In this document: positions 9,563 through 61,727 of the stretch, in pieces
Position numbering within the stretch: position 1 is the first letter of the stretch
Layout of the letters: each line of letters starts with the position of its first letter
Source of the DNA: Sorghum bicolor
Taxonomy: Eukaryota; Streptophyta; Magnoliopsida; Poales; Poaceae
DNA length: 64,000 nt
Assembly: GCF_000003195.3 (NCBI RefSeq)
Contig: NC_012878.2
Coordinates: 20,746,641 to 20,810,640, forward strand
Direction: 5' to 3'
Translations under genes and position numbers: made by a program
The notes under the pieces: model-generated
Database searches by the model: none
Told to the model about the DNA's origin: nothing
What the model saw: the letters and a program-made list of their open reading frames with translations, nothing else

Positions 9563-12500
9563 TGTAACACCCTAGGTGTTAAGCATGCACTTAGCCTTGG
9601 CAAAGCAATGCATAAGCATCCTCATCAATCATAAGCATCATGAGCATGTCATTCTCTTCAAGTATGATTTTATGTGCATCATTTCATGAGTTTTAAACAT
9701 GTTAAAATGTGATGCTTGCTTTAAAAATTGTGAAATAGTCAAACTAGGTTGGTTTATGTGTAAGAAGAATTAAGAACATTTTTGTGCAATTTTTGGAGCT
9801 ATGGAATTTGAGAAATGGAATTTATACAAAAATATCCAAAAAGAATTTATTTAAAACCTAGAACTGAGTTTTAACTTGTAATTCAAATTCTGTTTGGAAT
9901 TTGGTCTTGCTTGTTAAGGCAAAGCTGTAGAGTTTTTGTTTTGGAACAACTTTGTTTTTGGGAGCAAGAGGTGAAAATGATTTTAAATTGGTCCAAATGA
10001 ATTTAGAAAGAATTTGAGAAAAGAATTTCAAAAAAAAAAAAGAGAAAGGGGGCAGGCGCTGCTGGGCCGACCCGCCTCCCTTCTGGCCTAGCTGGGCAGC
10101 GCGGCCCGCTCCCCCTCCTCTCTCTCCCGCGCGCGCGGCGCCCGCCTTGCTCCACCCGGCGCCGGCCACGTGGCGGCCGTACGCCGGCGTTGGGCGCGCC
10201 GCGGCCGGCCTCCAACCCCCCCTGGTCGGGACGCCGGCGCAGGCTCCCAGGCCACTCCCTCCATTCTGTCTCCCCCGCGCCCTCCTTCTCCTTCCTCATC
10301 CGCTCGCACCGCGCAGCAGCAGCCGCTCCTCCGCGCGCCATTGCCGGAGAGAGCTCCGCCGCTCGTCGCCAGCCACACCAGAGCCTCAAGCTCGACGCCG
10401 AGAGCACCAGGGCACTCGCCGTCGCTAGGGTAAGCTCGTGCGAACGTTCTACCGAGGTGAGAGTCCGTCGAGCGCCGTGAATCGCTCGCCGGAGTCGCCC
10501 CGAGCTCGCCGGAGTACTCCGCCGCGACGGATCTAGCGTTTCCCTGCCTCTTTTCGCTCGTTCTCTGTTGCGCTAGGTCGGTAGGAAGGTGAGGAAGCTC
10601 GGAGAGGCGTTTGCGCACGCTCTACCGCGCCGGAGCAGCCTGGCCACGGCGAGCAGCGCCGCCGTGCCGCCATGCATGCTCGCCGGAGGTGTTCCGGCCG
10701 TCCTCTGGTCGATCCAAGGGTACCGCTGGGTGCGTCTTGCTGCGGGGAGCACGTTGGTGCTCACCCCATGGCCGGAGACCTCACCGCCGGCGAGATCCGC
10801 TCGTCGGAGGTGAGCTCCCTCTCGGTCTCGCTGACTGGTGGGGTCGGGGACCCACTGTCAGTCGCAGGGGTACCCCGGTGGGTGTAGATCTGGGTGTGCG
10901 TAGCATTTTTCGTCGGTTTTCTTGAAAAAGTGTTTTCCAGAAATTGATTTAAAGTTTGTAAAATCTATATCTTGAGTTCTACAGCTCCAAATTGAATGAA
11001 ATAAATTTGGGTGTGCTCTATATTTCCAGATCTACAGTTTGATGTAATTGCATGTCATGTTGGAGTAACTTTTCTGTGTGAATATATTTTATCCATGATT
11101 TTGTTAAACTTGGAAAATGCATAGTAAATAAAATATGGCTCAGAAAAATGTGAAACTTGATTTGTTGGCTTTGCATGTGTGTTTGCTCACTGGGAAAAAG
11201 TGGGTACATATTATTTGGTGTATAAATGAATTTATGGTAATTTAAATGCTTGCATGGCAGTGATTTATGATTTTTAATAATTAATTGGGTCATGCAATAA
11301 ATCTGGAAAATTTGTGGGTGTTTCTTATGATATTATGCAAATTGTAAAAATATGAAATCTGTTGTTTAACACTTGTATCCCAGTAGAGTGATTTTACTTG
11401 CCTTATTAATTAATCTTGTAATTTTTTTTGTGGCTCAAAATAAGTATCCAAAAATCATGAATAATTTCAGTAGACTTTATGCTTAGCTGGTAGTCTCCTG
11501 TAATTTTTGTGGAATTTATTGATGAACAGAATTGCATTTGATTTTTAATGGGCTTAGAAATGAATAAAGAAAACTATGAAGGGTGTATATATATAGGTTG
11601 AATGGAATAAGTTGGGTTTGGTGTATCTTTGAAGCATCATGGGGGTTGCTGGTTGCATTTGAAAAATATCTGTAGAAGAGAATGCAACAGATGCTTAATT
11701 TAGTTATTGTTCCCGGATGATGTTGACTACCTTGTAATAAGCATGACCAAGTGCATGACCTATGCATCATAACATGACTCCTTTGACACTCTCTCTTACA
11801 AGCATCCACTCGGGCATCTCACACTCCACTCATGAGCATATATGCATCATACAGGCTCGCAGGAGAATGAAGTGGGACCCGAGGAACCCGAGGAGATACA
11901 GGAGCAGGAACCTCCGGAAGCACAGGAACCCGGAGAGGAATTGCAAGAGTGTCCGGATCACCGACCCAGCACGTTTGAGAAAGGCAAGCCCCGGAGCATT
12001 CTAAGTCTCCCTATTCTCGCTAACTTATATAAAGTGCTATACTTGTTCTACTATAGTGCATATTAAGTGATAGGAGTTGCCTGATACCGTTGCTGCATGA
12101 GTACTCCTTGTTATTCCTACTCATTCAACTACCTTGTCCTATGTAGATAGGCACGGAGTCTATGCTTAGCTTGCTTAGTTCGGTAGAAGTCGGGTGATTC
12201 CCTGTCACCTGCGAGACATAGGTGGATACCTGCTTGTTTAAGCATTGGTTGCTCGGGGAAAAGCATAACCAAGTGTGGAATGAATTTGGAGACCGGGCAG
12301 GGTCTTATGGTGGGTTGACCATGGTGCCCCTGCCTGTGTCGATTAAGGACCGATCGTTGACGGCCCTCTTGTCATGTTGAACGCATGCCCCACACTTAGC
12401 TGGAAGGATAAGTCGTTCCGACCGCGAAGCCTGAACACTATCCGGGCCGGGAATCGAGCCGCCATGCGCTGTATTGGTGGTGGTTGAGGAGAACGACGAG

Positions 12501-13488
12501 GGCGCGGCGCGCAACCTTGGTATACCTTGGATACCTCGATCGCCGGAACGGTCCTCGGGTACTTGCGGTGCCTGCCGAGCCCGCGAATTGGTCCTGGATA
12601 GTGTAATACGGTGATCTGTAGCTCACTTGATCAGTGAGTGTGGTTTGTGTGGGGAATACCTCGCCAGCTGGTTAGAAATCGATTCGAATCGCCATCGCTC
12701 CTGGATAGTGAGCACTTGACATGAGCTTCGTCCTCGTAGTAAGGACTATGGAACACTCGGGTTATAATGATGAATGGTTTAAGAAATGCTATGATGAGGT
12801 ACTATCATAGTCTCATACTTGCTTATAATAGCACAGGAGCAAACCTAGATAATAGGTAATGATACTTTCAACTTGAGCAGATTAAAAGAAGAAAAGATTT
12901 ATGTAGGTTAGGGTAATAAAACCTTGCGGTCTTTGCAAAATGGTTGTCAGCTACCCCACTAAAGAGCCTTCATGATCCTTGATGAGTCTTTATTTTAAGT
13001 TTATGGCGGGTAAGTCTAGCTGAGTACCTTCTCGTACTCAGGGTTCTATTCCCATGTTGTTTTGCAGATGGTCACATGTACTATGGTTATTGCATCCTCT
13101 GTCTGTACCCAGCTATGGGTGATGACTAGACCAAGGGCGATGGTCACTCTGTCTCTTCCTTTGCTTTTGTGGGAATGACCAAACTATGGCACGGTATCAG
13201 ACTTATCGTGTGTGTTGTAATTTCGAACTATGAAGCTTCCGCTACTTGAAGAACTTGGTTTGTAATAACTTAAGTACTCCGATGTGTTTCATGAATGTTG
13301 AAATCTGAATGTACTTATGGATGGCGGCCGCTAAACTTATTACGATCTTGGCTGTATGCGATGTGTGGTTTGAAATCCTTCGAGATTTCACGGACTACCG
13401 GGATTATATGGGCTTAAGCGTGATGGTTCGACTATGCGAATGGTCACTATTAGGCTTAATCTCTTATAATTTGGTCGGTTCTGTTACA
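9563..13488 (+). repeat. 5' LTR of element B (3926 bp)
   Basis: It matches 38143-42001 plus 51778-51843 at about 99%. It holds an AT-rich first 450 bases, a GC-rich block (about 10040-10900) that resembles grass promoter/leader sequence with splice-donor-like GTAAGC and GTGAGG sites, a long AT-rich part, a short acidic ORF (11842-12066) and a 3' part ending in GTTACA. The GC-rich block is present in both LTRs and, rearranged, in solo LTR D. Confidence 0.95.
11842..12066 (+). CDS. Small acidic ORF inside B's LTR, about 74 codons
   Basis: The ORF starts ATGCATCATACAGG and encodes a Glu/Pro/Gln-rich peptide (motifs EEPEEIQEQEPPEAQEP and GKPRSI). Its copy in the 3' LTR (40421-40645) gives the same peptide apart from synonymous change, but the LTRs are only 1% apart so this says little. 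The GKPRSI segment can also be recognised in minus-strand solo LTR D near 23400. A run of CAG acceptor-like sites just upstream makes an internal exon possible. Whether it is translated is unknown. Confidence 0.3.
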   Translation: MHHTGSQENEVGPEEPEEIQEQEPPEAQEPGEELQECPDHRPSTFEKGKPRSILSLPILANLYKVLYLFYYSAY

Positions 13489-13506: not shown

Positions 13507-14313
13507 TTTAGCGAGTTACTATTCATAAGTACGTTTTAAACAAAAGTCTAAACCGGTTTAGTAAAAGATTTTATTAATTAATTAATAATGATCAAGGTGT
13601 TAAACTAAGTTTTGGGAAAATTATCTAGTGTGCCATGGTCATATCCTTTATGCCCAGTTAAGGACTCTAAGGTGGCTAGCTAAGTACTGACTTGGGGGTT
13701 AATGCATCATATTTTTATTTCGTCGCTCATACGGCGTGCAATAGTATGAGTGCCATTCATTTGAGTGGTAATGTATGGATCAATTCTTCCTCTACGCCAT
13801 GGTAAGTGGGAGTTGTGAGAGCATGATCGGATACACTGCCGGTCTAGGGAAGTGTTGTCAGGTGCTGTGTCATGCACACATGTTGGTGTGTCTTGGGAAC
13901 AGTACCGCATGCTGGGAATTCCGTCCTGAGAGGCGATGCCGTCATTAGGGCGATGATGTGGGTAGTGACACGTCACATGCATGGACAGGTGTCTGTGTAT
14001 GTGAAGTGTATAGTTTTAAATTTTGTTCTGCACGATCATACTGTGGGTGGGCTGAAATGAGTTTTCTGCAGGTACCCTAACCACATTCTCGCTTAGAACG
14101 CTAGTTACGTTATGAGCGAACGTTGTATGCCACCGCGTATACCACTTAGTGTTAACCTTTGTTTTCTAAGTTTGTGAGATCGTAAGTTCGTACATGCATC
14201 ATGTGCATTTCATATCATTGCTTACCTTCCCCCTTAATTTAATCTGTCCCAATTTTAAATGAAATAAATAAAGGTAATCCTCGCTCTTACCCACGGTATT
14301 CCATTTGCAGCAG
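13507..14313 (+). other. Element B leader upstream of the extra ORF
   Basis: Untranslated leader of about 800 bases; no convincing ORF was seen. It ends in an acceptor-like tract CCATTTGCAG directly before the ATG at 14314. A matching acceptor-like TATGCAG precedes the gag ATG. This would fit a shared spliced leader, but no transcript evidence is available. Confidence 0.4.
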
Positions 14314-15357
14314 ATGGCACGCACTAGGCTCACCGCTCGCAAGTCCACAGGTGGGCGGGCCCCTCGCCGTCCGTTGGCAGCTAGGAGCTCGCGACATAAG
14401 AGCAAGTTCCTAGAGGAGTTTGGGATGCCCACCTTGCTTTGGAGGGTGCTCAGTTCGATGGGGTATCCCGAAGGAAGGGAGCCTCGCTACTATTGGGATA
14501 AGGAGTCGCTTGGTGACGAGACCCTAGTGGGGATCGAGGCAGTTGTCCCTACCAGTGGAGGAGACCCTGCTTGGGGCGGTTGGGTGTACGAGTCCCGAGG
14601 TGTCACGCCTTTCCACGGTGCCAGCAGGGCAGCTTTCGCAGTTTTGAGGGACCTCATGGAGAGGTTTCCACAGGAGCTGGCCCACGCCTTCGCTGGGGTG
14701 TTTCCCCGGGGTGACCCTTACACTTCGGTGTGGGATCAGTCCGAGGTGAATGCTCTAGAGAGGAGTGCGGATGAGGACCAGCACAGTGACAGTGCAGCTA
14801 TGAGTGCCATGTACGCGTTGATGAAGACCTATGGAGGCCTGGAGCGTTGTTTGGGTCGCTTGTCCGGGTCTCTTCTCACCGTCCAGGATGAGAAGCGTCA
14901 GTTGCAGCGTGAGTTTGACTCTGAGGTTGAGAGGCTACAGGCAGAGTTGGCTCGTGTGACCAGAGAGAGAGACCAGGCAGTCCAGAAGAACAGTGAGCTG
15001 AGTCAGGACCTGCTTGCAGTGCGGGAGCAGAAGGACAGGGTGACCACTGCTCACAGGAACTGCGAGCGCATGCTAGTCCATGTGCTTGGATAGAGGAATG
15101 AAGCCTAGCACGAGGAGGACACTTTGAGGGCCCGACAGCTGGAGCTAGAGCAGCAGCTAGCTAATGCCGAGGAGTACAATGAGAACTCGCATGAGGAGAT
15201 CCACCAGCTGCATAACCAGCTCCACCCTCACCACCTGCCTGGAGCAGCGGAGCTAGACTCTGAGGACGAGATGGACGCGGATCCCGAGATAGGAGCAGCT
15301 GCTAGTGGTGACGAGGATGAGGATGGCTCTGGCATGGACAGTGATCATAGCGACTAG
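14314..15357 (+). pseudogene. Extra ORF of element B: histone H3 tail mimic, coiled coil and acidic tail
   Basis: Start ATG 14314; 347 codons to the TGA-free end at 15357, interrupted by TAG at 15091-15093 and 15109-15111 (both one change from CAG, same frame). Residues 2-27 align without gaps to the histone H3 N-terminal tail: 17 of 26 identical, including TARKSTGG around K9, APR and LA. H3 lysines 4, 14, 18 and 23 are all arginine here; K9 stays lysine (AAG at 14341-14343). Residues about 32-150 form a globular-looking domain rich in Trp/Tyr/Gly (WRVLSSMGYP, YYWDKESLGDE) that I do not recognise. Residues about 190-310 are coiled coil. The last 35 residues are highly acidic (DSEDEMDADPE, GDEDEDGSG), as in histone chaperones. 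It lies between PBS and gag. Function is inferred only: a chromatin or silencing-factor decoy, or a chaperone-like partner. Confidence 0.75.
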
Positions 15358-15673: not shown

Positions 15674-17214
15674 ATGCAGATGGTGCAAACACGTGGCGGA
15701 GGTAACAGCAATCCGGGTCTTGGAGCAGGTACATCCGGAGGTGGGGCTCAACGGAATGAGGACCGAGCACCAACACCACCACCACCACCTCTCCCGTACA
15801 CTGCGGATGTGTTTTTCGCGCAGTTTCTGGGGAGCCAACGCAACATGGAACAGATGCAGCGCAACATGGAAGAAGCTTTGCGCAACATAGCTGACAACAC
15901 CCGTCGTGGAGATAATCAGGGTGGCCGGGAGGTCAACCAGTACAGTTCATTCAAGGACTTCATGGATACCAAGCCACCAATCTTTAAGGAGGCCTTGGAA
16001 CCGCTCGAAGCAGATGAGTGGATCAACACCATGGAGCAGAAGTTTCGTCTTCTCCGAATGACAGAAGAACTCAAGGCTGAGTATGCGGCACATCAGTTGC
16101 AAGGACCTGCTGGGATTTGGTGGTCCCATCACCGTACCACCTACCCAGAGGGGACACCAATCACCTGGAACCGCTTCACCACCGCTTTGCGGGGAAATTA
16201 CATTCCTCCTGGTGTGGTTGAAATGAAGGTTGGGGAGTTCATGAGGCTGTCCCAAGGGACGAAGTCTGTGAAGGAGTATCTACACGCTTTCAACAATCTC
16301 GCTCGCTATGCCCCTGAGTTTGTGAACACGGAGGCTAAGAAGATTGCTAGTTTCCAGAGAGGCTTGAATCCAAAGATGCTGAAGACCATGGGTACAGGGG
16401 CCAGGGCTACTTTCAATGCCTATATCAGTGACTGTCTGACCCAAGAGAACAATAACAACAACTACAGTGCATCCAAGTCACGTAAAAGGGCTTTTGAAGC
16501 AGGATCATCCCAGTCCAGGGCACCAGTGGCAGGGCGACAGCAGTATCGTCCTCCTGCCCCGGGTGCTAGGTTCCGACCACCGCAGAGAAGGAACACCGGG
16601 CATCCAACCCAGCAGAAGCCGTACAAGGTGGCGATAGCTCCTGCCAAGCCAAAGGCAATTCAAGCCGCAGCACCTGCCGCCAACAATGCGCCCAAGGGTC
16701 CGTGCTATAACTGCCACAAGATGGGGCACTTTGCTAAGGAATGTCCCTACCCCAAAAGGCAGCAGCCAACCTATCCAGCTCGTGTGCATCATACCTCGAT
16801 TGAGGAAATCCCGGAAGGAGAACCGGTAACAGCTGGTATGTTTTCTGTCAACCAACATCTTGCAGTTGTTTTGTTTGATTCTGGATCATCGCATTCATTC
16901 ATGAGCCAAGCATTTGCACAAAAGCATAATCAACCAGTTACAGATCTGGGCTATGGCTACCGCATCAGCTCAGCAGGGGCAGATGTGTTGACCAATAGAG
17001 TGGTCCGAGGGGCAACCCTGGATGTAAGTGGCCAAGTTTTTCGGGTAAATCTAGTGGTCATGCCTGGGTTAGTTTTGGATGTTATCATGGGCATGAACTG
17101 GATGAGAGAATGGGATGCTGTCATAGATACTGGAAAGAGGATGTTATCTCTCAGAGAACCACAGGGCAGTAACTCTTTTCAAGTACCTCTGCCCCGTCGT
17201 CTTGACTTTGCTAG
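15674..17214 (+). CDS. gag: Element B gag-protease, N-terminal third of the gag-pol polyprotein
   Basis: Open from ATG 15674 (a second ATG at 15680 is equally possible) to the point where element C interrupts it. The capsid-like gag domain occupies about residues 90-200 (DEWINTMEQKFRLL, GPAGIWWSHHRTTYPEG, EYLHAFNNLARYAPEF). A CCHC knuckle CYNCHKMGHFAKEC lies near residue 345. The aspartic protease has VLFDSGSSHSF near residue 400 and the following VIMGMNWM segment. The protein would form the virus-like particle and release the pol enzymes. The codon at 17210 (GCT) is in the same frame as GCT at 35190 after the target duplication, so gag and pol were one uninterrupted frame of about 1500 codons before C inserted. 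Sequence after 17214 belongs to C's LTR. Confidence 0.9.
17210..17214. repeat. Target-site duplication GCTAG, left copy (element C)
   Basis: GCTAG precedes C's 5' LTR and recurs at 35190-35194 directly after its 3' LTR, proving insertion of C into B's gag-pol. Confidence 0.95.
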
Positions 17215-17905
17215 TGTTGACACCATTTTTGGGCACGTGTCCAGGATGGCAGGACAGGGTGGCAGTACGATGCGGGTTGCTGGTAAGGATGGTTGCCGAT
17301 GAGGGAAAGGTTGAATGTGACTAAGTCCTCAGACAGTAATATGGTGCCGATGACCAAGTAAAAGGGTCTGCCGATGACTATGGCAAGGGGATTGCCGATG
17401 ACGCGAAGGAGGAGTCCGGAAGCTGCCAGTTGTCATGTGGAGGAATTTCGGTTTGTCACGAAGGATGGTTTTATTATTTCCTTATGTTATTCGTATCGTT
17501 TTGTATACGGGTTCCGTGTAATTTGGAATTCGAATTCTAATCGTGTCTGGTCGTAGCTCTTTGAGCAGGGTATAAATATAAGCCCTAAGACCTTGTAATC
17601 GGGATATCTATCAATCAATCAAACACACGTTTTTTACTCACATTCCAGCATTTACTTTTCGACGACTTCGTCATACGTTTTCTTTTTGTTACGAGTTCTT
17701 AGGAATTCGTCGACTCAAGCTCGGCGTATCCTCAAGTTCCGCGTGAGTACCTCTTAGCCGTGACATCCGGGCGTATCGCTGTTGTCAGGACTAAAGTATT
17801 CGAGTTATCACCTTTGCCGATAGTAAGGTCAAATCGGCTGGCACGCCTTAACGTTTGGATCGGGTATTAGCCCTTTGTGTTTGCAGACTAGTTTTTGCAT
17901 CAACA
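17215..17905 (+). repeat. 5' LTR of element C (691 bp)
   Basis: Starts TGTTGACACC and ends GCATCAACA; the copy at 34499-35189 has the same length. TATA box TATAAATATA is at 17571-17580 after GAGCAGGG. Six copies of GCCGAT/ATCGGC occur in 691 bases. The two LTRs differ at TTCCGCGTG versus TTCCACATG. Confidence 0.96.
17571..17580 (+). promoter_or_regulatory. TATA box of element C 5' LTR
   Basis: TATAAATATA in a GC-flanked context, about 330 bases before the LTR end. The same box lies in the 3' LTR (34855-34864) and in element I (61348-61357). Confidence 0.7.
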
Positions 17906-17912
17906 TATCTTC

Positions 17913-17930
17913 TGGCACGCTCGGTGGGAC
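17913..17930 (+). promoter_or_regulatory. Primer-binding site of element C
   Basis: TGGCACGCTCGGTGGGAC starts seven bases after the LTR end. The equivalent site in element I (61689-61706) reads TGGCACGCCCGGTGGGAC. A tRNA-end complement starting TGG is expected here; I did not identify the tRNA. Confidence 0.75.
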
Positions 17931-17951
17931 AGATTCAAGATCAAGATCAAC

Positions 17952-20900
17952 ATGTCGATCTCTGACCTCGATCAAGACAACGTCATCCCCGTGACGGAAG
18001 CTAACCTCAAGGATGAGCAGAAGCAAGCTATTGCCCAAGCCATGGAAGAGTTCAAGCAGCAGTGCCTGAAGTCTTTCAGCATAAACAGGAGCGGCGAAGT
18101 GGTCCAGAAAGATGCACTGCCGGCACCACGGCAGGTCACCTTTGACGCTAATCCTGGCAAGCTTCAAGACATGGTTGACAATGCCATCAATCGAGCGCTG
18201 ATCAACCAAGCTGGTGTACTGTCTAATACGGTTTTCAACGCCGTGGCAAGAACCTTCAAGGAAGGACAAATCCCGCCGGATTATGTGGGCCCTTCCCATC
18301 ATCAACCCACGGCACCAGAGGTCACGGCTCCATCGGCTGCCTTGACGAGTGCAAGTGCACAGTCTGCCGTCCCTCCAAGTACATTGGGGACTACTGGTGC
18401 ACTATCTATGCCGATGGTAACCAACCCACAAATTTCAGTTGGGCAGCATAAACTGACAACCGATATGTTGGCATCGGCAATGTCGGGGTTAACTCTTCCT
18501 CCTAACTGGTGGGGTTATGGTATGCCTCCAGAGTTGACGCCGGGAACATCACAGATAACTGACATGAGGGGCAAAACTCCTATGACATCGGTACCTTCCA
18601 ATGTGCCGGTGAACCAGAGTCCTCGGTATACCACAACTACTACTGCAAGGCCTCACACCGGAAATCCTCAAGATCCAATGTTCCAGTTGCCTAACGCATC
18701 GGCAGAATCAATGCTGGTGCAACAGAGGCCTATGGCCCAGTCAGGGTATGTCAATTCAACGACGGTACCCAATTACCAATCATCGGCAGCACCTATGCCG
18801 ATGAACGCTAATAATGGATGGCTTGGACAGCAAGCCTTTCCACAGTCGCCCCAGCAGGGTTATCAGACTACAGGGTTCCAGCAAGGGCAGGTTTATCCCG
18901 GGTTCCAAGGTCAGGGAATTCCCAACCAGCCAATAAATTTTGGACAGCAACTCGGAGGACAGCCAATCGGTGGACAGCAGTTTGGTAGTCCGCAGATTGG
19001 AGGACAGGTGACCAATACGATGTTCCATACAGGTCACGTCCCGAACAGACACGTGGAGGTTCGCCACCAAATGCCAGATCCGCAGCCGCCTCATCGGCAA
19101 GATGCCGATGCGTATTGGGCCGATAAGATTGCCGAAGTAATGAGGGAACAATTTGGGATAAAACCCAAAGTCAACACTTATTCTTATCGGACACCGTATC
19201 CTCCAGCGTATGATTTGATCTCGCTTCCACATCGGTACAAAGTACCGGATTTTACAAAGTTTTCCGGACAGGACGACACGTCAACCATGGAGCATGTCAA
19301 CAGGTTCATTATTCAATGTGGAGAGGCTGGTAACAGGGACGAATTGAGGGTTCGCCTATTTTCATCATCATTGTCTGGATCGGCCTTTACTTGGTTCATA
19401 TCATTGCCTCCCAATTCAGTAATTACTTGGGCCGATCTAGAGAAGCAATTCCACAGATACTTCTTCTCGGGGGTTCATGAGAAGAAGATCACCGACTTGG
19501 TCAAGTTGAGGCAACGTAATGATGAGTCGGTTGAGGGATTTGTGCAGAGGATACGAGAGGTCAAAAATAAATGCTATAGCCTGGTTCTGGATGATCGGCA
19601 GCTAGCCGATTTGGCTTTCCAGGGTTTGTTGCCACACATCAGGGATAAATATGCTTCTCAGGAGTTTGAAAGTTTAAGTCACTTGGTGCAGAGGATATCT
19701 GATCAAGACATCAAGCCTTTCGAGCCTAAGAGGGCATGGAATAAGAAAGTCTCATTTGTTGATGAAGCAACAAGCTCAGATTCCGATGAAGAACCAGTAA
19801 TCGGTTTGGCAGAATGGGTAAAAAACAAGAAGCCGATGTCTTGTCCTTTTGGGCAGAAGGAACCAGAGAAGTTTGCATTTGACACCGCCAAGGCCGATAG
19901 GATATTTGACTTTCTACTTCAGGAAGGTCAAATCAAATTGTCACCTAACCACGTGATCCCGTCGGCAGAAGAGTTGAAGAGGATGAGGTATTGCAAGTGG
20001 CATAATGCAACTTCACATGATACCAATGAGTGCAAAGTATTCAGACAACAGCTGCAATCGGCCATAGAGTCAGGGAGAATCAAGTTTGATAGTTCCAAAG
20101 CCCAGAAGCCGATGAAGATAGACCAACATCCTTTCCCGACGAACATGTTGGATGCTAAGGGGAAGGCTAAGGTCTTAACGTCGGAGACAGCTGAGAAGAG
20201 TGCGTCGGTAGATCCTCAGCATCAAGTTACTACCGCCGATGCAAGAAGTAAGGGCTTGGTCCAGGAAGGAGCTAGCTCAGGAAGAATTCCTCGATCTGGT
20301 ATTGTCATAACTCATAGAAGGCCTCGAGAGAGATGGCAACAACGGGAAGATCGGTACCGGCGCCAGCAGGAAGATTATCAACGGGAAGAAGAGAGACGCC
20401 GACAGGAGTGGAATCGGCACAGGGATCATTGGAATTGCCCATTCTTCATCCATTGTTGGGAGGAAAATATCAAGCTTCCTACTGTCAGAGACTGCCCTGA
20501 ATGCAACGGTTATGATCGGTACGACAGGAACGATCGGTGTTATCATGATGATGAACGACGATTTAATGGGCCGATCAGAGGAAGGGCGTCAGTTCATGAT
20601 CGGCTGGGGGGCAGGCTTAGCGTTCACGATCGGCTCGGTGACCGTGTCCAGTATTTTCCCAGGAACCAAGAGGAGCTTGAAAGAATGGCTGATGCGCGGG
20701 TTCCCGATGAATTCATATTTTGCAGGGATACTAACACGCATCGCATAGAGTCAAGAGAGAACCAACGCCCAACGGCAAGACAAAGGCCACTTCCTCCATG
20801 GTGCCCTCAAGGATTAACCAAGACACAGAAAAGGAGATTGCAACGTGAAAGGCAGGAAGAGCTAAATAAAGGAGAGAACTCTGGGAGTCGGCAGCCGTCA

Positions 20901-21599
20901 GACGCTAAGAAAGAAGGTCCATCGGCAGGCGTCAACATGGTATTCATGTTGCCGATGGAGTTTCTTGCACCGGCCAGTGACGATGAGTTGGGATTTTCTG
21001 ATCAGATAGCTCAGTTGGCTCTGGATCCAATGACGGCTATCTTTGAGAAACCTGCCGATAACGAGAGGCAGCATCTTAAAGCTTTGTTCCTCAAAGGAAG
21101 GGTTGATGGGCAGCCAATGACTAAGATCCTAGTTGATGGTGGGGCTGCTATTAATATTATGCCATATGCAGTATATCGGAAGCTTGGGAAAGGGGATCAA
21201 GATTTGACCAAGACCGATATGATGCTCAAAGACTTCGAGGGAAACGTGTCTCCGGTCAAGGGGGCGATATGTGCGGAGTTGACCATCGGCAGCAAAACCT
21301 TGCCGACAACCTTTTTCGTGATCGGCGGAAAAGGTGCCTACAATTTATTATTGGGGAGAGATTGGATTCATGCCAATTGTTGTGTCCCATCTACAATGCA
21401 TCAGTGCTTGGTTCAGTGGGTAGGTGACAAGATTGAGATCGTACCAGGGGATTCTTCTTATGTTATCGCATCGGCAGAAGCGGATACTTATGAAAAGACT
21501 AGGTGCATTTCAGGAGAAGTTTGGGAGAAAGATTTTCTCAAAGTTGCCGATTATGAGATTCCACCGATCCAAGCAGTCGGTTCTGACGATGGTTTTTAA
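17952..21599 (+). CDS. gag: Element C gag-protease, 1215 codons, intact
   Basis: ATG 17952 follows the PBS by 21 bases; the frame is open upstream too but that part is LTR/PBS. A long Gln/Pro/Gly-rich N-terminal half (repeats of GQQ/GGQ near 18830-19010) precedes the gag core near residues 430-560 (FTKFSGQDDTSTMEHVNRF, FHRYFFSGVHEKKITDL, EGFVQRIREVKNKC). A zinc-knuckle-like CKWHNATSHDTNEC lies near 20000, followed by an Arg/Glu-rich segment. The protease has ILVDGGAAINIMPY near 21130 and LLLGRDWI near 21350. It is longer than a usual gag because of the low-complexity N-terminus. Its TAA stop overlaps the pol ATG (TAATG, 21597-21601), with pol in the -1 frame after a run of five T. Confidence 0.9.
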   Translation: MSISDLDQDNVIPVTEANLKDEQKQAIAQAMEEFKQQCLKSFSINRSGEVVQKDALPAPRQVTFDANPGKLQDMVDNAINRALINQAGVLSNTVFNAVARTFKEGQIPPDYVGPSHHQPTAPEVTAPSAALTSASAQSAVPPSTLGTTGALSMPMVTNPQISVGQHKLTTDMLASAMSGLTLPPNWWGYGMPPELTPGTSQITDMRGKTPMTSVPSNVPVNQSPRYTTTTTARPHTGNPQDPMFQLPNASAESMLVQQRPMAQSGYVNSTTVPNYQSSAAPMPMNANNGWLGQQAFPQSPQQGYQTTGFQQGQVYPGFQGQGIPNQPINFGQQLGGQPIGGQQFGSPQIGGQVTNTMFHTGHVPNRHVEVRHQMPDPQPPHRQDADAYWADKIAEVMREQFGIKPKVNTYSYRTPYPPAYDLISLPHRYKVPDFTKFSGQDDTSTMEHVNRFIIQCGEAGNRDELRVRLFSSSLSGSAFTWFISLPPNSVITWADLEKQFHRYFFSGVHEKKITDLVKLRQRNDESVEGFVQRIREVKNKCYSLVLDDRQLADLAFQGLLPHIRDKYASQEFESLSHLVQRISDQDIKPFEPKRAWNKKVSFVDEATSSDSDEEPVIGLAEWVKNKKPMSCPFGQKEPEKFAFDTAKADRIFDFLLQEGQIKLSPNHVIPSAEELKRMRYCKWHNATSHDTNECKVFRQQLQSAIESGRIKFDSSKAQKPMKIDQHPFPTNMLDAKGKAKVLTSETAEKSASVDPQHQVTTADARSKGLVQEGASSGRIPRSGIVITHRRPRERWQQREDRYRRQQEDYQREEERRRQEWNRHRDHWNCPFFIHCWEENIKLPTVRDCPECNGYDRYDRNDRCYHDDERRFNGPIRGRASVHDRLGGRLSVHDRLGDRVQYFPRNQEELERMADARVPDEFIFCRDTNTHRIESRENQRPTARQRPLPPWCPQGLTKTQKRRLQRERQEELNKGENSGSRQPSDAKKEGPSAGVNMVFMLPMEFLAPASDDELGFSDQIAQLALDPMTAIFEKPADNERQHLKALFLKGRVDGQPMTKILVDGGAAINIMPYAVYRKLGKGDQDLTKTDMMLKDFEGNVSPVKGAICAELTIGSKTLPTTFFVIGGKGAYNLLLGRDWIHANCCVPSTMHQCLVQWVGDKIEIVPGDSSYVIASAEADTYEKTRCISGEVWEKDFLKVADYEIPPIQAVGSDDGF

Positions 21600-21871
21600 T
21601 GGATAGATTCGCCGATGATGGAAAATTAGGCCAGGGATTCACATCGGCCGATGATTTGGTAGAAGTAGATATAGGTAGTGGTGATAGGCCTAGGCCTACT
21701 TTTATTAGCGCTAAACTAGATCCTGAGTGTAAACGGCAGTTAACTAGTTTGTTAAAGGAATATAAAGATTGCTTTGCTTGGGATTATACAGAGATGCCTG
21801 GTTTAGACCGATCAATTGTTGAACATCGGTTACCCATTAAGTCTGGATTTCGGCCACATCAGCAACCAGCC
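21599..21871 (+). CDS. pol: Element C pol, N-terminal fragment before solo LTR D
   Basis: ATG 21599 opens pol in the -1 frame relative to gag-protease. It covers the pre-RT segment (PECKRQLTSLLKEYKDCFAW, DYTEMPGLDRS) seen just ahead of RT in Tat-like elements. The frame is cut at 21871 by solo LTR D and resumes in the same frame at 27498 once one CAGCC copy is discounted. Confidence 0.85.
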
Positions 21872-24800
21872 TGTCACGGAACCGTCCAAATTATAAGAGC
21901 ACAAGTACAAAAAAACAATCACCGAAGTGATCAATTTATCATACTTGAGCCCATATAACTCTGGTAGTCCAACAAAATCACGAGGGATTTCAAACCAACC
22001 AACATACAAGCCAAGATCGTAGTGATTCAACATAACAAGTCACACGTTACATACATTTCGCAAGTAGTTCAAATAGAATCGGAGTTCGATAAGGTTATTA
22101 CAACTCAAGTTTACAAATAGCGGAAGCAAAGTAATTTGAAACCAATATCACTTTTATTTCAAATACATGCCAGTACCATGGTCCATTCCAACAAAAGCAT
22201 CATAGATGAGGTAAGTAGGAAGGATCATGCCCATGATCTTACTCCTTCCATAAAGCAGGAGTCATCCAAATCTTGCAGTAGCTATGATACATCACAACCT
22301 GCAACAAGTGGGAATAAACCCTGAGTACGAGAATGTACTTAGCTAGACTTACCCGTCATAAACCAGAAATAAATGACACCAAGGAGTATGCAAGGCTGAT
22401 ATATAAGTGGAGCTTGTTGGACAACATTTTGCATAAAAAGCTTAAGTATAAATAGTTAAACCTTTCTTATTTAGCATCCATTTAATTCTCATTAACCTAT
22501 TAACTAGATTAGCACCTGTACTAAGCAATCACTTGATTAATATCAATCAATAATAACCATATCAGGTTTATTAAGGCCGTGATCATCATCATCATCATAG
22601 AACCATTAAGTTATTTAGTGAATGCTACGTTTGCCGCTGCTCTGTCAAGTTCTCACTATCCGGGAGAGACGGCGATTCGAATCGATTCCTATCCAGCTGG
22701 AGGGTTATTCCTAACACTCACCCATGCTTCCCCCGTCGGAGAGCAAGTGGGTCACCTTTGGTACGACTCAGGAATCGCGGCTCCGATCAGCGCCGCACTC
22801 CCAGGGCTACCACTCTGCCAGGGAGGTCAGGAATTTTAACTCACCTGCCTTTGGACTTACGCCAATGGTCCCCCGCACACCGCACTTCCTCCGGTAGTGC
22901 GCACTTTATACTTGCCGGTCTTCCGGCCTGAGTCATACTACTAGGCTTCGCGGTCGGAACGAGTTATCCGGCCAACTAAGTGTTAGGCATGCGTTCAACA
23001 TGACAAGAGGATGTGCAACGATCGGTCCTTAACCGACACAGACGGGGATAGATCCACACCCAAGACCTCCATGCCTTGTTGTTTCACTATCATCATCCCG
23101 CCCGGTCTCCTTTCATATTATTAACACATGGTTCTTTTCCACGATAGCAAATATAGCCAACCGTGATCCGGAATCCACCTATATCCTGCAGGTGACAGGA
23201 AATCACCTGGCTTCTACTGAGCTAAGCATGGCTAAACGGAGACGTGATCCTAACTAATTAGGATTCAGGTTATATATATACTGGACAAGGAAGGGTATAT
23301 ATATGCAGCAAGGGTTTCATCCAACTCCTATACTTAATGCAACAATACATATATAACAAATATATACTCATTCACTTTCAAAAAGTAGGAAGCTTATAAT
23401 GCTCCGGGGCTTGCCTGGAATGTGACTCCGAGTCAAATTAGTTAGCTTGCTCCGTCTTGGTGACATCTAAGATCATAACACTTGCTTAATCAATCCATCT
23501 TCAGGATGATCCACCATCACGTCCTTCACGTGGTTCATCTAGCGTACCTAGATGACATGCAAGATGCAAGTGCATGAACACATGTTTCATAGGATCACAT
23601 AACACTAATTAACACCACCAAGACATGAGTCACTTAAAACCACACACAATGTAAGTTAATCAAGCATTCATGTATTTTTAGCAATTCTGGACATACACGC
23701 AACAGTTGAGTAAATAAATCATAACCAGAGTTCTACAGATCCAAAAATTCATGCAACAAGATATTATGGAAATCTTATAAAATTGTATACAATTCATATT
23801 TAATCATCTTAGCATGATTAGTAAGTTAACTAAGTCAAACATGCATATTTACAGAATCTGGTCCAGGAATTCCAGAGAACAAGCATTTTGACAGATAAAC
23901 TTAATACCCTTATAACTCACAAACCATTTGTCCAAATGATATGAAACTCTAACAAAAGCTAGATGAAAGAGTTATCTACAACTTTTGTATAGACAAGTTT
24001 CACAGCAAACATAATTTATACTATGGAATTAGTTGCACAATTAAAACTGCTCATGTTGTCCCCAAACAGTAGGGTACAAATAAAGACAGAAAACTGATAG
24101 GCACTTCAAGCAAGCATAACTGGAGTTACACAACTCCACAAGACATGCAAGAAGACATTCTGAAAAGCTTAATAAATTATCTATATTTCATCTTTAGACA
24201 TCAAAACATGATTCTCAACTTAAGCTGCTCGAAATTATAAAGTTCCAGAATCTGTCTCTCACAAACAGAGAGCAGTCATTTCTGAAATCAAACTTTGAAC
24301 AGACATAACTCACAAACCACAAGGCCAAATACTACCAAATTTTAACAGCAGCTAGATAGGTGAACTATCTACAACTTTGCTATAAACAAGATTCCCAGAA
24401 AACACCATTTACATATTGTAATCCAAACAGTTCCACAAACTGTCCAGAAACAACAATTGCAAACAATTAATTATTAATTTATGTTTCAAACATGCATTTG
24501 AGCAAAACCATTGTTACCAACAGTTTACACATAGTTAAAGAACACCAGAAAACATAGTGGTCACAACCAAATAAATTTATTTAATGCATTTCTTAATTTA
24601 TTTGGATAATAAGGTGAATTAAAGAACATATAACAAAAGTGCTCAATAAATTCCACCAAAATTACAGTAGCCTCTACATACTATAAATACACTATTATAC
24701 AAATTTCATTGTATTTTAACAAACATAGCAGTCTCTATGGAAAACACAAATTGCTATTGCAATTAACCATGTGAGAATAAGATAAATGCACAAATCATAT

Positions 24801-27492
24801 TTTCTTCAAACACATGGCCATATCATACATAAACATGATACCACAGTATCATAGGATTGTATTGGAACAACATTTTCCATTTTTACATTTTTATTTATAA
24901 TTATAAACCATTTATCAAGATCCATAAAGACATCTCTGTCCAAAATATGGACATAATCTATCATGTCACATTAAACAGCCATAACTTGAGTTTCATATGC
25001 CCATAAATTATGGTTATGTACTTTCTAGAAAGCTTACTAAATTGTGAACAACTTTGTTATTGACATCTAGAGCTAAATCTACAACTAACAAGGTCTTACA
25101 TAACAAACAATGCACTCCTGTCTGGGTTTAGACAGAAAATGAAACAGTAATTTAAACCACTATAACTAGACATATGCTTAACCAAAAATTATGTTATTTA
25201 GCTTGATGGAAAGCTTATGAAAAGTACTACAACTCATATATTTTCATCCAGGCATGATTCACAACCTAACTGAGCCAAACAATATAAACATGCAGATCCA
25301 CTCAGAATAGGAGCAAAGCAACACAGAGCATTTGTTATTTTTATAACTCTTAATCTATCAAGCCTAAATTCACCAAACTTTTTCCAGACATCAAATATAA
25401 TATGAAAAGCTTGTCACAATATTTTCACATTTATTTTAGCAATAATACAGTGGTTATGAAAAAGACAAATATAGCAAGCAATTAAAACCGAACTGCATAA
25501 ATCAATTTTTACTGCTAAAACTGCAAACTAAACATGGCATATTATACATCTACTGCATAGAGAATTTCACAGGGATTCCAAAAAGTCCACATTTGCTATT
25601 TTACGATTTTTCTATGATTTTATATAGATTTTCAAAGTTCCAGCATTTCTCCAAAACAAATAGATCCTCGAAGCACTATTCATCTGAGTCATGAGTTCTG
25701 CAGAAAACCCCCTGGATCTTGTCGAATTTGTCCCCGTGGTCCTTGGTCGCGACGAAAACAGAGGAGCTCGCCGGAGCTCCCTGTTCCGGCCGGCTGAGGC
25801 CTCGTCGGCGGCAATGGAGGGGTGGGGAAGCATGAGGGGGCTTGCGCGCACTCGAGGGTGGTCTCGGAAGGTCGGGAGAGGGCCCGAGGCGGCCCGGCCA
25901 CGCGCGTGCATTGACGGTGATGGCGGCGGTGGTGCTCCGGCGGTCTCAGCGGCGGACAGAGATGGCGAGTGCGAGCACGAGGCATAGAAGATAGAGGCGG
26001 AGCTCATGGTGGTGCTCACTGGGAGCGAGAAGGCGCGGAACCGCGAGAATGGGGACGGCGTCGAGCTCGGCCCGCCGGCCATGGTGGACGCGGCGGCGTT
26101 CCCGCAGTAGGGCGCAGTAGAGCGCGAGCGAGTACGAGTGAGGACGCCAAGGAGGAGTGGGGAGCTCGCCATCCACTCTGGAGGGTAGGAGCACGCGTCG
26201 GAGTGGAGCAGAGAGCTGGGTACGCGGTGTCTGTGCATGGTCGCCACGCACCAACGACGTGTCCGCCCGTTGACACATTCCACCGAGCACGTGGCGGGTG
26301 ACCGTGTGGCCGAAGTGGGAAGCCGATTTGGGCCGGATCTGGACCGAATTTGGACATGGACCAGAAACGAAGTTTTCTCTACTCTTGACACTCTCCAACT
26401 TTGATTAAGGTGCCATGGTCATTAGAGTTGTAGATTAGAAGATAATTTGATGCCAACCTTTGAGTGTCAATGAATTGATAAAGATTAGCAAAACTCAAAA
26501 TTGATGACCAAAACGAAGTCAAAATGGTGTCATCTTTTGGTATGCTCTAGCCCACAATATGTACTCCAACTTTTATTTTGGGACCCAAGCAAGTTGTTCA
26601 TAAGAATTAGGAGAACGCGGGATGCCAACATGACGAACTGAAATTCCACACTTAGAAATCCGAAATGCTGGAATTTACAGCAGATTCGAACTTGTGCCTA
26701 TTATTTGACAGGATTAGAAGATGATTCAGACTTGGGCACTTTAACAAAGTTTGTAGCATAAAAACTATACTACAACTTTTATTAAAGGACCTTGTACTGT
26801 TTCTGCCTGGTTAGTAAGATACAAAGCTCCCAACTAGGATACCCGAAACTGAGCACCTTGAGGACTTAGCCAAAATTTCTGGGGTTCCAAAACAGCACTG
26901 CATTGAATCTTGTGAGCTCAATTTGACTAGGATAGGTACCAAACTAGCTCTTGACCATTAAATAAAGTTTGTTCTACAGAAGCAAAACTATAACTTTTAT
27001 TTAAGGTCAAACCTCATAACTGGTACCAAAGTCAAACTTTCACTTTGGTCAAAGTATCAACTTGATAAAGCTCAAACTAGGATTTTAGAGCAAATAAAGC
27101 ATTTTCTTGGCACAAGCCCAATATGAACCCTTCATGACCTTTGTTGTAGAGCTCATTTAGAATCACTTGGTCAAGATTGCAAGGTTAGGTTAGTAACCCA
27201 AGGTTCCGTTCACTGAATAAGGTCATTCCAACAATCATGTAACTTCTCCTTTCATTTGACCTTTTGAATCCAAACTTCACGAAACTTTTTGTGTGATCAA
27301 CCTAGGTAGAGATGGAGATGATACACATGAAAGAAGCACCATCAACACCCACAAGCTCTATTATGGAGGATCATCAAGCATTCACTTGTCACAACATCAA
27401 AGTATGTTTCATACTATCATATATGAACAATTGATGCTTATGCTCATGAAATGTGAGTGCCAAAATGCAAGACAAACACCTGGGGTGTTACA
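21872..27492 (-). mobile_element. D: 5.6 kb solo LTR of a Tekay-related family
   Basis: The ends are TGTCACGG...GGTGTTACA on the plus strand, i.e. TGTAACACCCC...CCGTGACA on the minus strand, flanked by CAGCC at 21867-21871 and 27493-27497. Many blocks match B's LTR in reverse orientation, for example TACTTAGCTAGACTTACCCG near 22340, the ATCGATT/GCTGG block near 22680 and AACATGACAAGAGG near 22998. No gag or pol ORF, no PBS and no second LTR start were found inside, so it is a solo LTR left by recombination. It is about 1.7 kb longer than B's LTR; 23500-25600 is AT-rich sequence and 25690-26340 is a GC-rich block like that of B's LTR. Confidence 0.85.
23500..25600 (-). other. AT-rich non-coding interior of solo LTR D
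   Basis: About 2.1 kb with no ORF. Weakly repeated phrases of the type CTACAACTTT, ATAACTCACAAACCA and AGCTAGAT recur at roughly 350-450 base spacing (near 23970, 24320 and 25050), suggesting old internal duplication. Confidence 0.4.
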
Positions 27493-27497
27493 CAGCC

Positions 27498-30458
27498 CGC
27501 CGATATAATCCTAACATTCTACCTGATATTAAGGCCGAAATCACTAAACTTATTGAAGCTAAGTTTATTCGGCAGTGTCGGTATGCTGAATGGATTTCCA
27601 ATGTCGTCCCGGTTTACAAGAAGAACGGGAAGCTTCGGGTGTGCATTGATTTCAGGAATCTCAATAAAGCTACGCCGATGGATGGATATCCAATGCCTGT
27701 CGCCGATCTACTGGTTGATGCTGCGGCTGGCCATCGGGTCATCAGCTTCATGGATGGTAATGCGGGTTACAATCAAATATTCATGGCAGAAGAGGATATT
27801 CCAAAAACCGCATTCAGGTGTCCTGGTCATGTTGGACTATTTGAATGGATAGTCATGACTTTTGGGTTAAGGAATGCCGGTGCTACTTATCAAAGGGCTA
27901 TGAATTTTATATTTCATGAGTTCATCGGCAAGATCGTAGAAATTTATATTGATGATGTGGTGGTCAAGTCTGGAGGTTTCTCAAAGCATCTTGCCGATTT
28001 ACGAAGAGTGTTGGAGTGCACAAGGAAGCATGGATTGAAGATGAATCCCAACAAGTGTGCATTTGGTGTATCGGCAGGGCAGTTTCTTGGTTTCATGGTA
28101 CATCAGAGGGGTATTGAAATTAGTCGAAGATCTATTGATGCTATCAATAAAATAGTGGCCCCTACCAATAAAACCGAGCTCCAATCTTTGATCGGCAAAG
28201 TGAATTTTATCAGAAGATTTATATCGAATTTATCTGGGAGAATTCGTGCTTTCAGTCCTCTTCTTAAATTGAAAGCCGATCAGGAGTTTGTTTGGGGAAA
28301 AGAACAGCAGTTGGCTCTAGATGAAATCAAAAGGTATCTAGTAAACCCTCCAGTTTTAGTTCCACCTCAACAAGGGAAACCCTTCAAATTATATTTATCT
28401 ACCGATGGATCGGTTATCGGTTCAGCTTTGGTTCAAGAATTTGAAGGGAAAGAGAGGGTAATTTATTATTTGAGTAGGAGGTTAATTGATGCTGAAACCA
28501 GGTATTCGGCCATTGAGAAGCTGTGCTTATGCTTATATTTTTCATGTATCAAGCTAAGACATTACCTGTTGTCGGCCGAATGTGCTGTTGTTTGCAAAGA
28601 TGACGTGGTCCGATACATGCTATCTATGCCGATTATGAGTGGTAGGATCGGTAAATGGATTTTGGCGCTGTCGGAGTTCGATTTGCGTTACGAGTCGGCT
28701 AAGGCGGTCAAAGGGTAGGTTATGGCCGATTTTGTGACTCAGCATTGCGGTCTAGTGGAAACCTTGGAAATTGCACCCTGGACGCTCTTCTTTGATGGAT
28801 CTACCTGTGACCGGGGAGCAGGAATCGGCATTGTATTAGTTTCTCCTAAGGGGAGGAAGTATGAATTTTCCTTGCCGATTGTTGCTACATCAACAAATAA
28901 TCAGGCTGAGTATCAAGCTCTGATCAGGGGATTGGAGTTGTTAAGAGAAGTTCGGGCTGATGCTGTTGAAGTATTCGGAGATTCCATGTTGGTTATAAAT
29001 CAATTGGCCGGAAGCTATGAATGCCGGAGTGAAGTTCTCATAACCTATTTCGAGAGAAGTATACAACTGTTAAAGGAATTCAAGAACTTCCGATTGGAGC
29101 ATATTCCCCGATTGCATAATGAAGACGCTAATCGGTTAGCCCAGCATGCCTCGGGATATCAGCCAATGATTAATGCGACATCGGTAGTCAGTGCCGGTGA
29201 TTGGAGGGAAGAAATTATTGATTATCTAAAAGATCCATCCAAAAAGGTTGAAAGACGGGTTCGATTTCAAGCAACCAAGTATGTGCTCCTTGAAAATGAA
29301 TTGTATTATCGAACTATCGACGGAATTCTTCTCCGATGCTTGGGTGATGATGAAGCCAGAAGTTTGATGGGAGAAATCCATGAAGGAGTGTGTGGAGCGC
29401 ATCAGTCAGCTTTTAAGATGAAGTGGATGATTCGAAGGAATGGATATTTTTGGCCAACCATACTTGAAGATTGTTTTAAATATTTCAAGGGATGTCAAGG
29501 TTGTCAAAAGTTCGGTAATATCCAGAGAGCACCCGCATCGGCTATGAATCCTATAATAAAACCTTGGCCGTTCCGGGGGTGGGCCATCGATCTGATCGGC
29601 CAGATTTATCCACCATCTAGCAAAGGGCATAAATTCATTCTAGTTGCCACTGACTATTTCACCAAGTGGGTCGAAGCTATTCCGTTGAAGAAAGTCACAT
29701 CGGCCAATATGATTGATTTTGTGAAGGAGCATATTATTTACCGATTTGGGATTCCCCAAACGATTACTACCGATCAGGGCACCATGTTCACGTCGGGGGA
29801 GTTCGATGAATTCGCAATCGGTATGGGAATTAAAGTGTTGAATTCTTCTCCTTACTATGCTCAAGCCAATGGGCAGGCCGAAGCGTCTAACAAGGGAATT
29901 ATCAAGCTTATTAAACGAAAGATTGAAGAAAATCCTAGGCGGTGGCATACATTGTTGAATGAAGCACTGTGGTCTTATCGGATGGCTTGTCATGGATCAA
30001 CCAAGGTGTCACCTTATCAATTGGTGTACGGACATGATGCAGTTTTGCCTTGGGAGATTAAGGCTGGATCTAGGCGATTATCTTTTCAAGATCAATTGGC
30101 TGCCGATGATTATGCCACTTTAATGACCGATGAGTTAGATGATTTAGCAGGGCATCGGTTAAAGGCTTTAATGAGTATAGAAGAAAATAAGAAGAGAGTT
30201 GCCAGATGGTATGATAAAAAAGTGAAGGCCAAGGAGTTTGCCGATGGGGATTTGGTATGGAAGTTGATTTTGCCAGTCGGGACTAAAAGTTCAAAGTTTG
30301 GGAAGTGGTCTCCTAATTGGGAAGGTCCTTATCGGATAAAACGCTCAGCTCCTGGTAATGCCTATATTCTAGAAACTCTCGAAGGAGTTGAATTTCCCAG
30401 AGCGTTAAATGGCAAATATTTGAAGAAGTACTACCCCAGCATATGGATCGATGCATAA
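27498..30458 (+). pseudogene. pol: Element C pol: RT, RNase H, second RNase H, integrase, with one stop
   Basis: Continues pol after D. RT has KLRVCIDFRNLNKATP near 27640 and catalytic YIDDVVVKS near 27950. RNase H follows (LYLSTDGSVIGSALV near 28390). A single in-frame TAG at 28716-28718 interrupts the link to the second RNase H (LFFDGSTCDRGAGIG near 28790), one change from CAG. Integrase has the H-H-C-C region (HEGVCGAHQS to CQGCQKFGN, 29380-29510), a core with AIDLIGQI, ITTDQGTMFTS and NGQAEASNKG, and a C-terminal domain ending at 30458. Apart from the stop and solo LTR D the frame is clean. Confidence 0.88.
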
Positions 30459-30603
30459 AAGGTTAAGTGCCGATAACACTCCTATCGGCTGAATTTAAAT
30501 GTTCAAGGGCAGACTTAATGTTTCAAAAGATGCCGATAACAGTCTTATCGGCTAGACTAAAAGCTAAAAGCGGAGAAACAAAGGTGTGTCGCCGATGAAA
30601 GCT

Positions 30604-33600: not shown

Positions 33601-33859
33601 GGGAATCCTCTTGGTTTCTGCGTTGATAAGGTCGGTTGGATCTGGATCCCCTAGAGGGCCGAGGCATTGAAGATGTGGTTGATCGGTAGGAATGACAATT
33701 TTATTGGATAACTCCTGGTGTTTTGGGGAATAAAGATACAAAGAAAAAGGAGAAGGAAAATATTCGGTAAGGTAAATCGCAGATGAACAGGAATGTAGGA
33801 AAAAGGTACAGCAGATGAGATGGAAGTCTGACCTCAGGGACGACGAAGCCAACGGCCAT
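30604..33859 (-). CDS. Antisense spliced plant-mobile-domain gene of element C
   Basis: Runs opposite to pol, between integrase and the 3' LTR. First ATG at 33859 gives a nine-codon exon (MAVGFVVPE) to a GTCAG donor at 33832. Exon 2 is 33714-32269 (donor GTAAGT) and carries the plant mobile domain: WPSPTDWFLRVSNSYEVQWG, YFWSDTLNAFVFGHG, TLADVAMLTGLD, GGPWWFINMWLNLHLH. Exon 3 is 32193-31988. Exon 4 starts near 31911 and is Pro/Gln/Lys-rich with a TAG near 31681. The last block, 31278-30604, is a coiled coil ending ISAIQALLNI. Introns 1 and 2 have clean GT-AG ends. Plant mobile domain proteins such as MAIN/MAIL1 act in the nucleus in silencing and RNA control; transposon-borne copies are known. 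The role here is unknown. Exon 2 is open for 482 codons, suggesting recent function. Confidence 0.75.
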
Positions 33860-34007
33860 CTTGTCGTGAAGGGGACGCTGGAAGACGCCGGAGTTGATGA
33901 AGAAGAATGCTTGTCGGAGATCTTGAGGATTGAGAATGGCGCCGCCGCTGGAAAAGTGAAGTTGGATGGCAGAATGATGTAATGGGGGAGGAGTACCCAA
34001 GAAGGAA

Positions 34008-34018: not shown

Positions 34019-34084
34019 GCAAGATGGACAAGGGCAAATCTGACTTATTTCTTTGCCGCATCCGAGAAACCCGAGGGTACTCAA

Positions 34085-61681: not shown

Positions 61682-61727
61682 CATCTTTTGGCACGCCCGG
61701 TGGGACAGATTCAAGATCAAGATCAAC

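Follow-up and report, generated by a model that had tools for sequence, protein, structure and literature searches.

Extra open reading frames and histone mimics described so far

The long-LTR Ty3/gypsy retrotransposons of grasses known as Retrosat2, RIRE3, RIRE8, Sorsat2, and ZMsat2 encode an extra open reading frame, ORF0, upstream of ORF1 (Gao et al. 2012, PMC3485330). In its sections on ORF0, that paper describes the frame as poorly conserved between families and its role as unknown, and it proposes hydrolase-like functions from models, with no link to histones. The 5'aORF of maize and Sorghum bicolor Sb7 Tekay elements, in the account given in 2024 (PMC11728184), is predicted to be nuclear, ends in a long C-terminal helix, and has a weak structural match to a DRBM. 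A histone H3 tail is absent from that account, and the word "histone" occurs nowhere in the main text of PMC3485330, PMC7264820, or PMC11728184. Nor was an earlier mention of an H3 tail on ORF0 found among the best-ranked papers in searches of the open-licence PMC literature.

Plants silence retrotransposons via H3K9 methylation. Cellular mimics of H3K9 are short internal motifs in host proteins, DNA ligase 1 being one such protein. The automethylation sites of G9a and GLP, as well as ATF7IP, contain H3K9-like motifs that serve as substrates of H3K9 enzymes and as ligands of chromodomains, according to the passages on them in PMC9768651. The ORF0 tail described here has the H3K9-like motif in common with these host mimics, but it amounts to about 20 residues at the extreme N terminus of a retrotransposon protein. 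Transposons are also known to encode anti-silencing proteins, such as the sequence-specific VANC proteins of VANDAL elements (PMC10398659). The role proposed below for ORF0 would likewise be directed against epigenetic silencing, whereas VANC comes from different elements, acts sequence specifically, and is presented in the relevant part of that paper with no mention of a histone mimic.

The element that carries ORF0

The window, by which is meant the whole 64,000-nucleotide stretch of S. bicolor DNA analyzed, contains the ORF0-bearing element laid out in Table 1. ORF0 is a separate frame between the 5' LTR and gag, and the LTRs exceed 3 kb, an arrangement that matches the Tekay/Retrosat2-type layout. 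With the Retrosat2-type ORF0, as far as the published sections describe it, the frame shares its placement upstream of gag in a long-LTR Ty3/gypsy element; with the Tekay 5'aORF, as described in PMC11728184, it shares the 5' position, the long C-terminal helix, and the predicted double-stranded RNA-binding domain (dsRBD)-like fold. This young, long-LTR Ty3/gypsy element is probably of the grass Tekay/Retrosat2 type.

How young is it? The sequence TGTAACACCC is found at 9563 and again at 38143, and the two LTRs are 99.07% identical over 3865 columns (blastn of 9560-13422 against 38140-42001). With a substitution rate of 1.3e-8 per site and year, this identity places the insertion about 0.35 million years ago. 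An initiator-Met primer-binding site was not matched at the element by the single pattern tried. The chromodomain-like end of the integrase was recognized by the Pfam Chromo profile at E 0.004 in the window and at 2.4e-4 in another copy, L032, both under the curated cut-off of Pfam.

Table 1. Layout of the ORF0-bearing element and of the insertion within it (positions in the window)
Feature	Position	Strand	Basis
ORF0-bearing Ty3/gypsy element, whole	9563-42001	+	LTR pair and ORFs between
5' LTR, starts TGTAACACCC	9563..13422, about 3.86 kb	+	blastn against 3' LTR; 3' edge approximate
TTTGCAGCAG, abuts ORF0 ATG, 3'-splice-acceptor-like	14304..14313	+	sequence
ORF0 (5'aORF), open part, 259 aa	14314..15090	+	ORF list, translation
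H3-tail segment, mature residues 1-21 (ARTRLTARKSTGGRAPRRPLA)	14317..14379	+	alignment to H3
K9 codon AAG	14341-14343	+	translation
dsRBD-like domain, residues 32-118, helix/three strands/helix	14407..14667	+	predicted structure
Long helix, probably coiled coil, residues 161-258	14794..15087	+	predicted structure
Remainder of ORF0 frame past both stops: helix end and acidic C terminus	15109..15354	+	translation
gag-protease ORF	15680..17302	+	Pfam Retrotrans_gag, zf-CCHC, RVP_2
Nested second LTR element	17214..35189	+	LTRs 17214-17905 and 34498-35189
Remaining pol: RT, RNase H, integrase, chromodomain-like end	35190..38147	+	Pfam
Chromodomain-like integrase end	about 37968-38090	+	Pfam Chromo
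3' LTR	38143..42001	+	blastn against 5' LTR

The window copy of ORF0 is interrupted by premature in-frame stops at 15091-15093 and 15106-15108, and the remainder of the frame beyond them matched nothing in Pfam. Longer open frames occur in other copies of the same genome, with 350 codons in L029 and 359 in many others; at least 147 matches to ORF0 were scored there.

A second LTR element, with LTRs of 692 bp that are 99.7% identical, has inserted between gag and pol, and the 3' end of the gag-protease frame, from about 17214, falls inside it. Frames at 61632-63827 (+) are near-identical by eye to the nested-element frames at 17895-21599 and are probably a further copy of that family. The nested element also has a 544-aa frame at 32218-33852 (-) that by eye resembles a plant mobile domain or transposase-like protein.

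A histone H3 tail at the N terminus

The tail region of ORF0 (14314-14409, +) opens with MARTRLTARKSTGGRAPRRPLA. The original prediction described it as a mimic of the histone H3 tail on a retrotransposon frame, and alignment reproduced its count: 17 of the 26 mature residues after the Met are identical to H3 without a gap. The K9 neighborhood at residues 6-13 (TARKSTGG) is free of differences, as predicted, so that the H3-like sequence around K9 (A-R-K-S) that defines an H3K9-type mimic is present. The differences from H3 are R4, L5, R14, R18, P19, A22, R23, S24, and S25, and K28 is the next lysine after K9.

Could such a likeness arise by chance? Shuffling these 26 residues 200,000 times gave at most 12 matches to H3. 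Among the 1,015 ATG starts on both strands of the window that are followed by 22 open codons, only that of ORF0 gives 7 or more matches over 21 residues, and it gives 16. A phmmer search of the PDB with the first 36 residues returned 132 distinct sequences at E up to 10, led by H3 at 2.4e-6, and the 60 of these that were listed are all H3, H3 peptides, H3 variants, or chimeras with one. In two related proteins, P0057 and P0062, the identity to H3 is 19 of 21 residues, the sole changes being at K14 and K18. Chance resemblance is refuted by these results, and we assign it next to no probability.

In the reverse direction, an H3 protein used as query against the genome of the window drew 39 matches (E up to 0.001). 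Thirteen of these are confined to the tail, and each of the 13, when read individually, proved to be an ORF0 tail (12 further copies and L102); the others are H3 genes or fragments of H3-like ones. The likeness is confined to the tail in profile searches as well: no Pfam histone family was hit at E up to 10 by the window frame, P0022, P0035, P0054, P0057, or P0058. The H3 tail on ORF0 is thus real, as the prediction had it, the frame in question being the extra ORF of a Ty3/gypsy element with a chromodomain-like integrase end; the interpretation that the prediction placed on it is supported in part.

Conservation of the tail among relatives

Three protein searches (one with 50 matches and two of which the best 120 of 193 and the best 120 of 219 were taken) yielded 189 proteins, many of them fragments and some decayed copies. 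Together with the window copy, these 190 rows were screened by position only, a Met being required 36-39 residues before the core motif. Among the matches listed, 45 rows passed, 44 of them tailed; the other, P0143, is tailless and passes because it has an upstream Met. The tailed lineages are 51-73% identical to each other in the domain after the tail.

K9 is kept in all 44 tailed proteins, again among the matches listed, and in all 78 distinct sequences of the young genomic family (87 loci examined, 7 dropped for indels, window included). The prediction held that copies lacking the segment or letting it drift would point to a chance or dead capture, and inside the tailed clade neither pattern was found. 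The other residues kept in these 44 proteins are A1 and A7 (43 each), S10 and T3 (42 each), L20 (41), T6, G13, and P16 (40 each), and R2 (39); the uncharged residues are as well conserved as the basic ones. Lower counts apply to K4 (27), Q5 (16), K14 (1), and K18 (0). K18 and K23 are lost throughout; K14 is too, except in P0058 and, if a one-residue gap is allowed, P0073. The substitutes are mostly Arg for K14 and K23 and mostly His at residue 18. Arginine at all of positions 4, 14, 18, and 23, as first described, is therefore correct for the window copy but does not generalize, K4 being replaced by Arg in only 16 of the 44 proteins. In the 15 pairwise comparisons of six lineage representatives, identity averages 75% for residues 1-21, 33% for residues 22-29, and 60% for the 88 residues that follow. 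The H3 tail is a family trait of ORF0 that extends beyond the window copy, and the lineage is one of retrotransposons with an N-terminal H3 tail in which K9 is the one fully kept lysine.

One interpretation of this pattern dispenses with K9 methylation. The tail would still act as an H3 mimic, but a PHD- or BAH-type reader, a histone chaperone, or an importin might bind its free A1-R2-T3 end or the tail in unmodified form. The N-terminal Met of Met-Ala proteins is normally trimmed, so ORF0 would expose such an end, and the counts for A1, R2, T3, and K4 fit it; however, the Arg that replaces K4 in more than a third of the tailed proteins would disturb many readers of the K4 state, and K9 is the lysine that never varies. 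We consider this reading quite unlikely.

Tailless relatives, mosaics, and short forms

Not all copies of this ORF carry the tail. A sister clade lacks it, and of 114 sequences with the core motif, 42 were labeled tailed and 19 have a short, different N terminus (for example, MAAPAGSENFL), the other 53 being unreadable at this end. On a tree of the domain after the tail (51 rows with near-copies removed, 93 columns), in which only 7 of the 48 inner branches are firm, the tail requires three changes, two of which are due to P0041 and P0109. P0041, a broken protein, has a very long branch. P0109 appears to be a mosaic: its body pairs with the tailless P0133 (support 100/97), and its tail and the start of its core are nearly those of the tailed P0177. 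A similar stretch upstream of the Met is common to all three, so the exchange is compatible with either direction. On this sequence comparison, P0109 can be read as evidence of recombination between ORF0 families, and the history of the tail seems best fitted by one gain or one loss plus recombination.

The domain after the tail can also be missing. Seven short proteins, P0044-P0050, keep the tail, the coil, and the acidic end, but their dsRBD-like domain is largely or wholly gone; having a tail but no core motif, they lie outside the 44. P0039, whose sequence is also that of L102 (G000:C4:27028537-27028989), likewise keeps the tail, coil, and acidic end without most or all of this domain.

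A predicted dsRBD-like domain

What is the tail attached to? Two predicted models give an alpha-beta-beta-beta-alpha fold, as in the dsRBD. In VIA-align, dsRBDs top both lists, the nearest being plant DRB7.2 and the second dsRBD of DCL4 (PDB 8igd, 9k9p). The best Foldseek E values were 0.03 and 0.009, in lists that also contain unrelated proteins, and nothing in a viral structure library matched at E up to 0.001. The Pfam dsRBD profile was not listed at E up to 10 for any of nine proteins scanned (for P0001, among the best 25 of 27 families). The lysines with which dsRBDs contact dsRNA form the motif KKxAK. By eye, this motif is absent from the ORF0 alignment, where the presumed equivalent stretch reads, for instance, FHGAS, AEGAE, or KEGAG. 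DRB7.2 and DCL4 dsRBD2 provide the closest predicted fold, but at 12-18% identity and with dsRNA-contact lysines that ORF0 lacks. The predicted fold of the domain is dsRBD-like and not that of a histone. A dsRBD-like fold in ORF0 is not new, since the weak DRBM match was already part of the account in PMC11728184.

Selection on the tail

Parsimony counts 3.71 changes per site in the tail against 3.61 in the first 46 columns of the body (43 rows, P0143 and P0109 being excluded, with three rows gapped and three bodies shortened). The tail overall evolves no more slowly than the start of the next domain. Within the tail, K9 and L20 have no changes at all, but 6 of the 46 body columns have none either, so constancy does not by itself set K9 apart. 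In the genomic family, pN/pS over all variants is 0.50 for the tail (14 synonymous, 15 not), 0.26 for the dsRBD-like domain, and 0.51 for the coil; over variants present in at least three sequences, it is 0.31 (3 synonymous, 2 not), 0.10, and 0.13. Selecting the copies by protein score biases these values downward, and few variants were counted in the tail. Within this young family, constraint is weaker on the tail than on the dsRBD-like domain. Many of the changes hit CG-containing Arg codons, the pattern expected from decay through cytosine methylation, and the constancy of K9 is partly mutational, as its codon contains no CG.

Codon 18 had been taken as a sign of selection, on the argument that CGT lies several changes from a lysine codon. 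The relatives tell otherwise. Of the 78 distinct copies, 51 have CGT (Arg) at codon 18 and 27 have CAT (His), and in 11 of 12 further copies this codon is CAT or CAC. These 11 read APRHQLA (two of them QLATRSS), which is nearer to H3 than the RRPLA of the window. As CGT is a single change from CAT, R18 came from His and not directly from Lys, and the codon argument falls.

Is the tail, then, an old H3 capture that now serves merely as a basic stretch for nuclear import or nucleic acid binding, its likeness to H3 reflecting ancestry and not mimicry? Its charge is preserved where Arg has replaced K14 and K23, a tailless sister clade exists, the tail evolves no more slowly overall than its neighbor, and the grass 5'aORF proteins, as characterized in PMC11728184, are predicted to be nuclear. 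On the other hand, A1, A7, S10, G13, P16, and L20 are each kept in 40-43 of the 44 tailed proteins and would be unneeded by a basic signal, and residue 18 is mostly His. We regard this account as a doubtful but serious candidate.

A nucleotide signal, such as a splice acceptor or a packaging sequence, might also be conserved and encode the peptide incidentally. A Gln codon (CAR) precedes the start Met of ORF0 in 18 of 18 relatives readable upstream, tailed and tailless alike, and the ATG follows CAG in 9 of 12 further genomic copies (CAT, TAG, and CAA in the other three). The gag start in the window also abuts GCAG (15670-15679), which suggests that the ORF0 and gag transcripts may be spliced at acceptors abutting their start codons. 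Within the tail, though, many codons have undergone synonymous changes, on which ground such a signal was rejected as the cause of tail conservation; we rate it very improbable.

Origin of the tail

Two host H3 genes read as controls (L136 and L137) both encode the canonical tail. Over 63 nt, the window tail is 62-73% identical to them, too low an identity to prove capture from H3 DNA. Five residues with six-fold codons are common to the window tail and H3: the codons for R2, R8, S10, and R17 are identical to those of L136, and L20 differs (TTG, CTG); with L137, only R2 and S10 agree. Judged by the protein sequence, descent of the tail from an H3 gene is likely. A search of viral contigs matched a pattern in 38 stretches, none of which encodes an ORF0 relative. 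Two other searches for related loci yielded no stretch of use. In a search of genome contigs, six loci gave matches limited to residues 1-24 or 1-27; they are taken as contaminating H3 genes, L096, the one that was read, being H3.

What the tail may do

Given that its key site is kept in relatives, the copy of the H3 tail may well be doing something for the element. We think it somewhat probable that selection has kept it as an H3-like, K9-centered docking peptide for host chromatin factors. An ancestor of ORF0 would have gained coding sequence for about the first 20 residues of H3 at its N terminus, and selection would have retained this as a docking peptide. With the Met removed, the protein would begin A-R-T-(K/R)-x-T-A-R-K9-S-T-G-G, like H3. 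The host H3K9 methyltransferases, which are of the SUVH class, could methylate K9 of the tail, and readers of H3K9me might then bind. In H3, K14, K18, and K23 carry acetyl or ubiquitin marks, and a tail without these lysines could not carry them. Joined to the dsRBD-like domain, the long helix, and the acidic end, the tail might form part of a multivalent adaptor that either tethers the particle of the element to heterochromatin or competes with H3 in the silencing loop. For this docking role speak the match to H3 far beyond chance, the residue pattern in the 44 proteins, the near-identity to H3 of P0057 and P0062 alongside the canonical tail of the two host H3 genes, the higher mean identity over residues 1-21 than over the residues after them, the short forms that keep tail and coil, and the tailed N terminus of P0109; against it count the parsimony and pN/pS comparisons, the low nucleotide identity to H3 genes, and the tailless sister clade.

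A bolder proposal is that ORF0 is a two-handed anti-silencing protein. Plant writers and readers of H3K9me include the SUVH-CMT3 loop, SHH1 in the recruitment of Pol IV, and ADCP1. The K9-methylated tail, devoid of K14, K18, and K23, would occupy such factors, and the dsRBD-like domain would occupy the DRB/DCL partners of the siRNA pathway, so that one protein would block both arms of RNA-directed silencing. We consider this unlikely.

As it stands, a high-copy retrotransposon bears an H3K9 tail joined to a fold used by partners in RNA silencing. Were it a target of methylation or of readers, the tail would be a molecular interface at which the element and its silencing system meet directly, and it would provide a function for an extra ORF that has no known role according to the relevant sections of PMC3485330 and PMC11728184. 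Might the binding partner instead be the chromodomain of the element itself, as the original prediction also suggested? That idea is weakened, since the chromodomains of group II, to which those of the Tekay clade belong, are without an aromatic cage according to the passages on them in PMC12786077 and PMC3350952; on the other side, fusions of group II chromodomains do go to heterochromatin, as the former paper describes in its part on these fusions.
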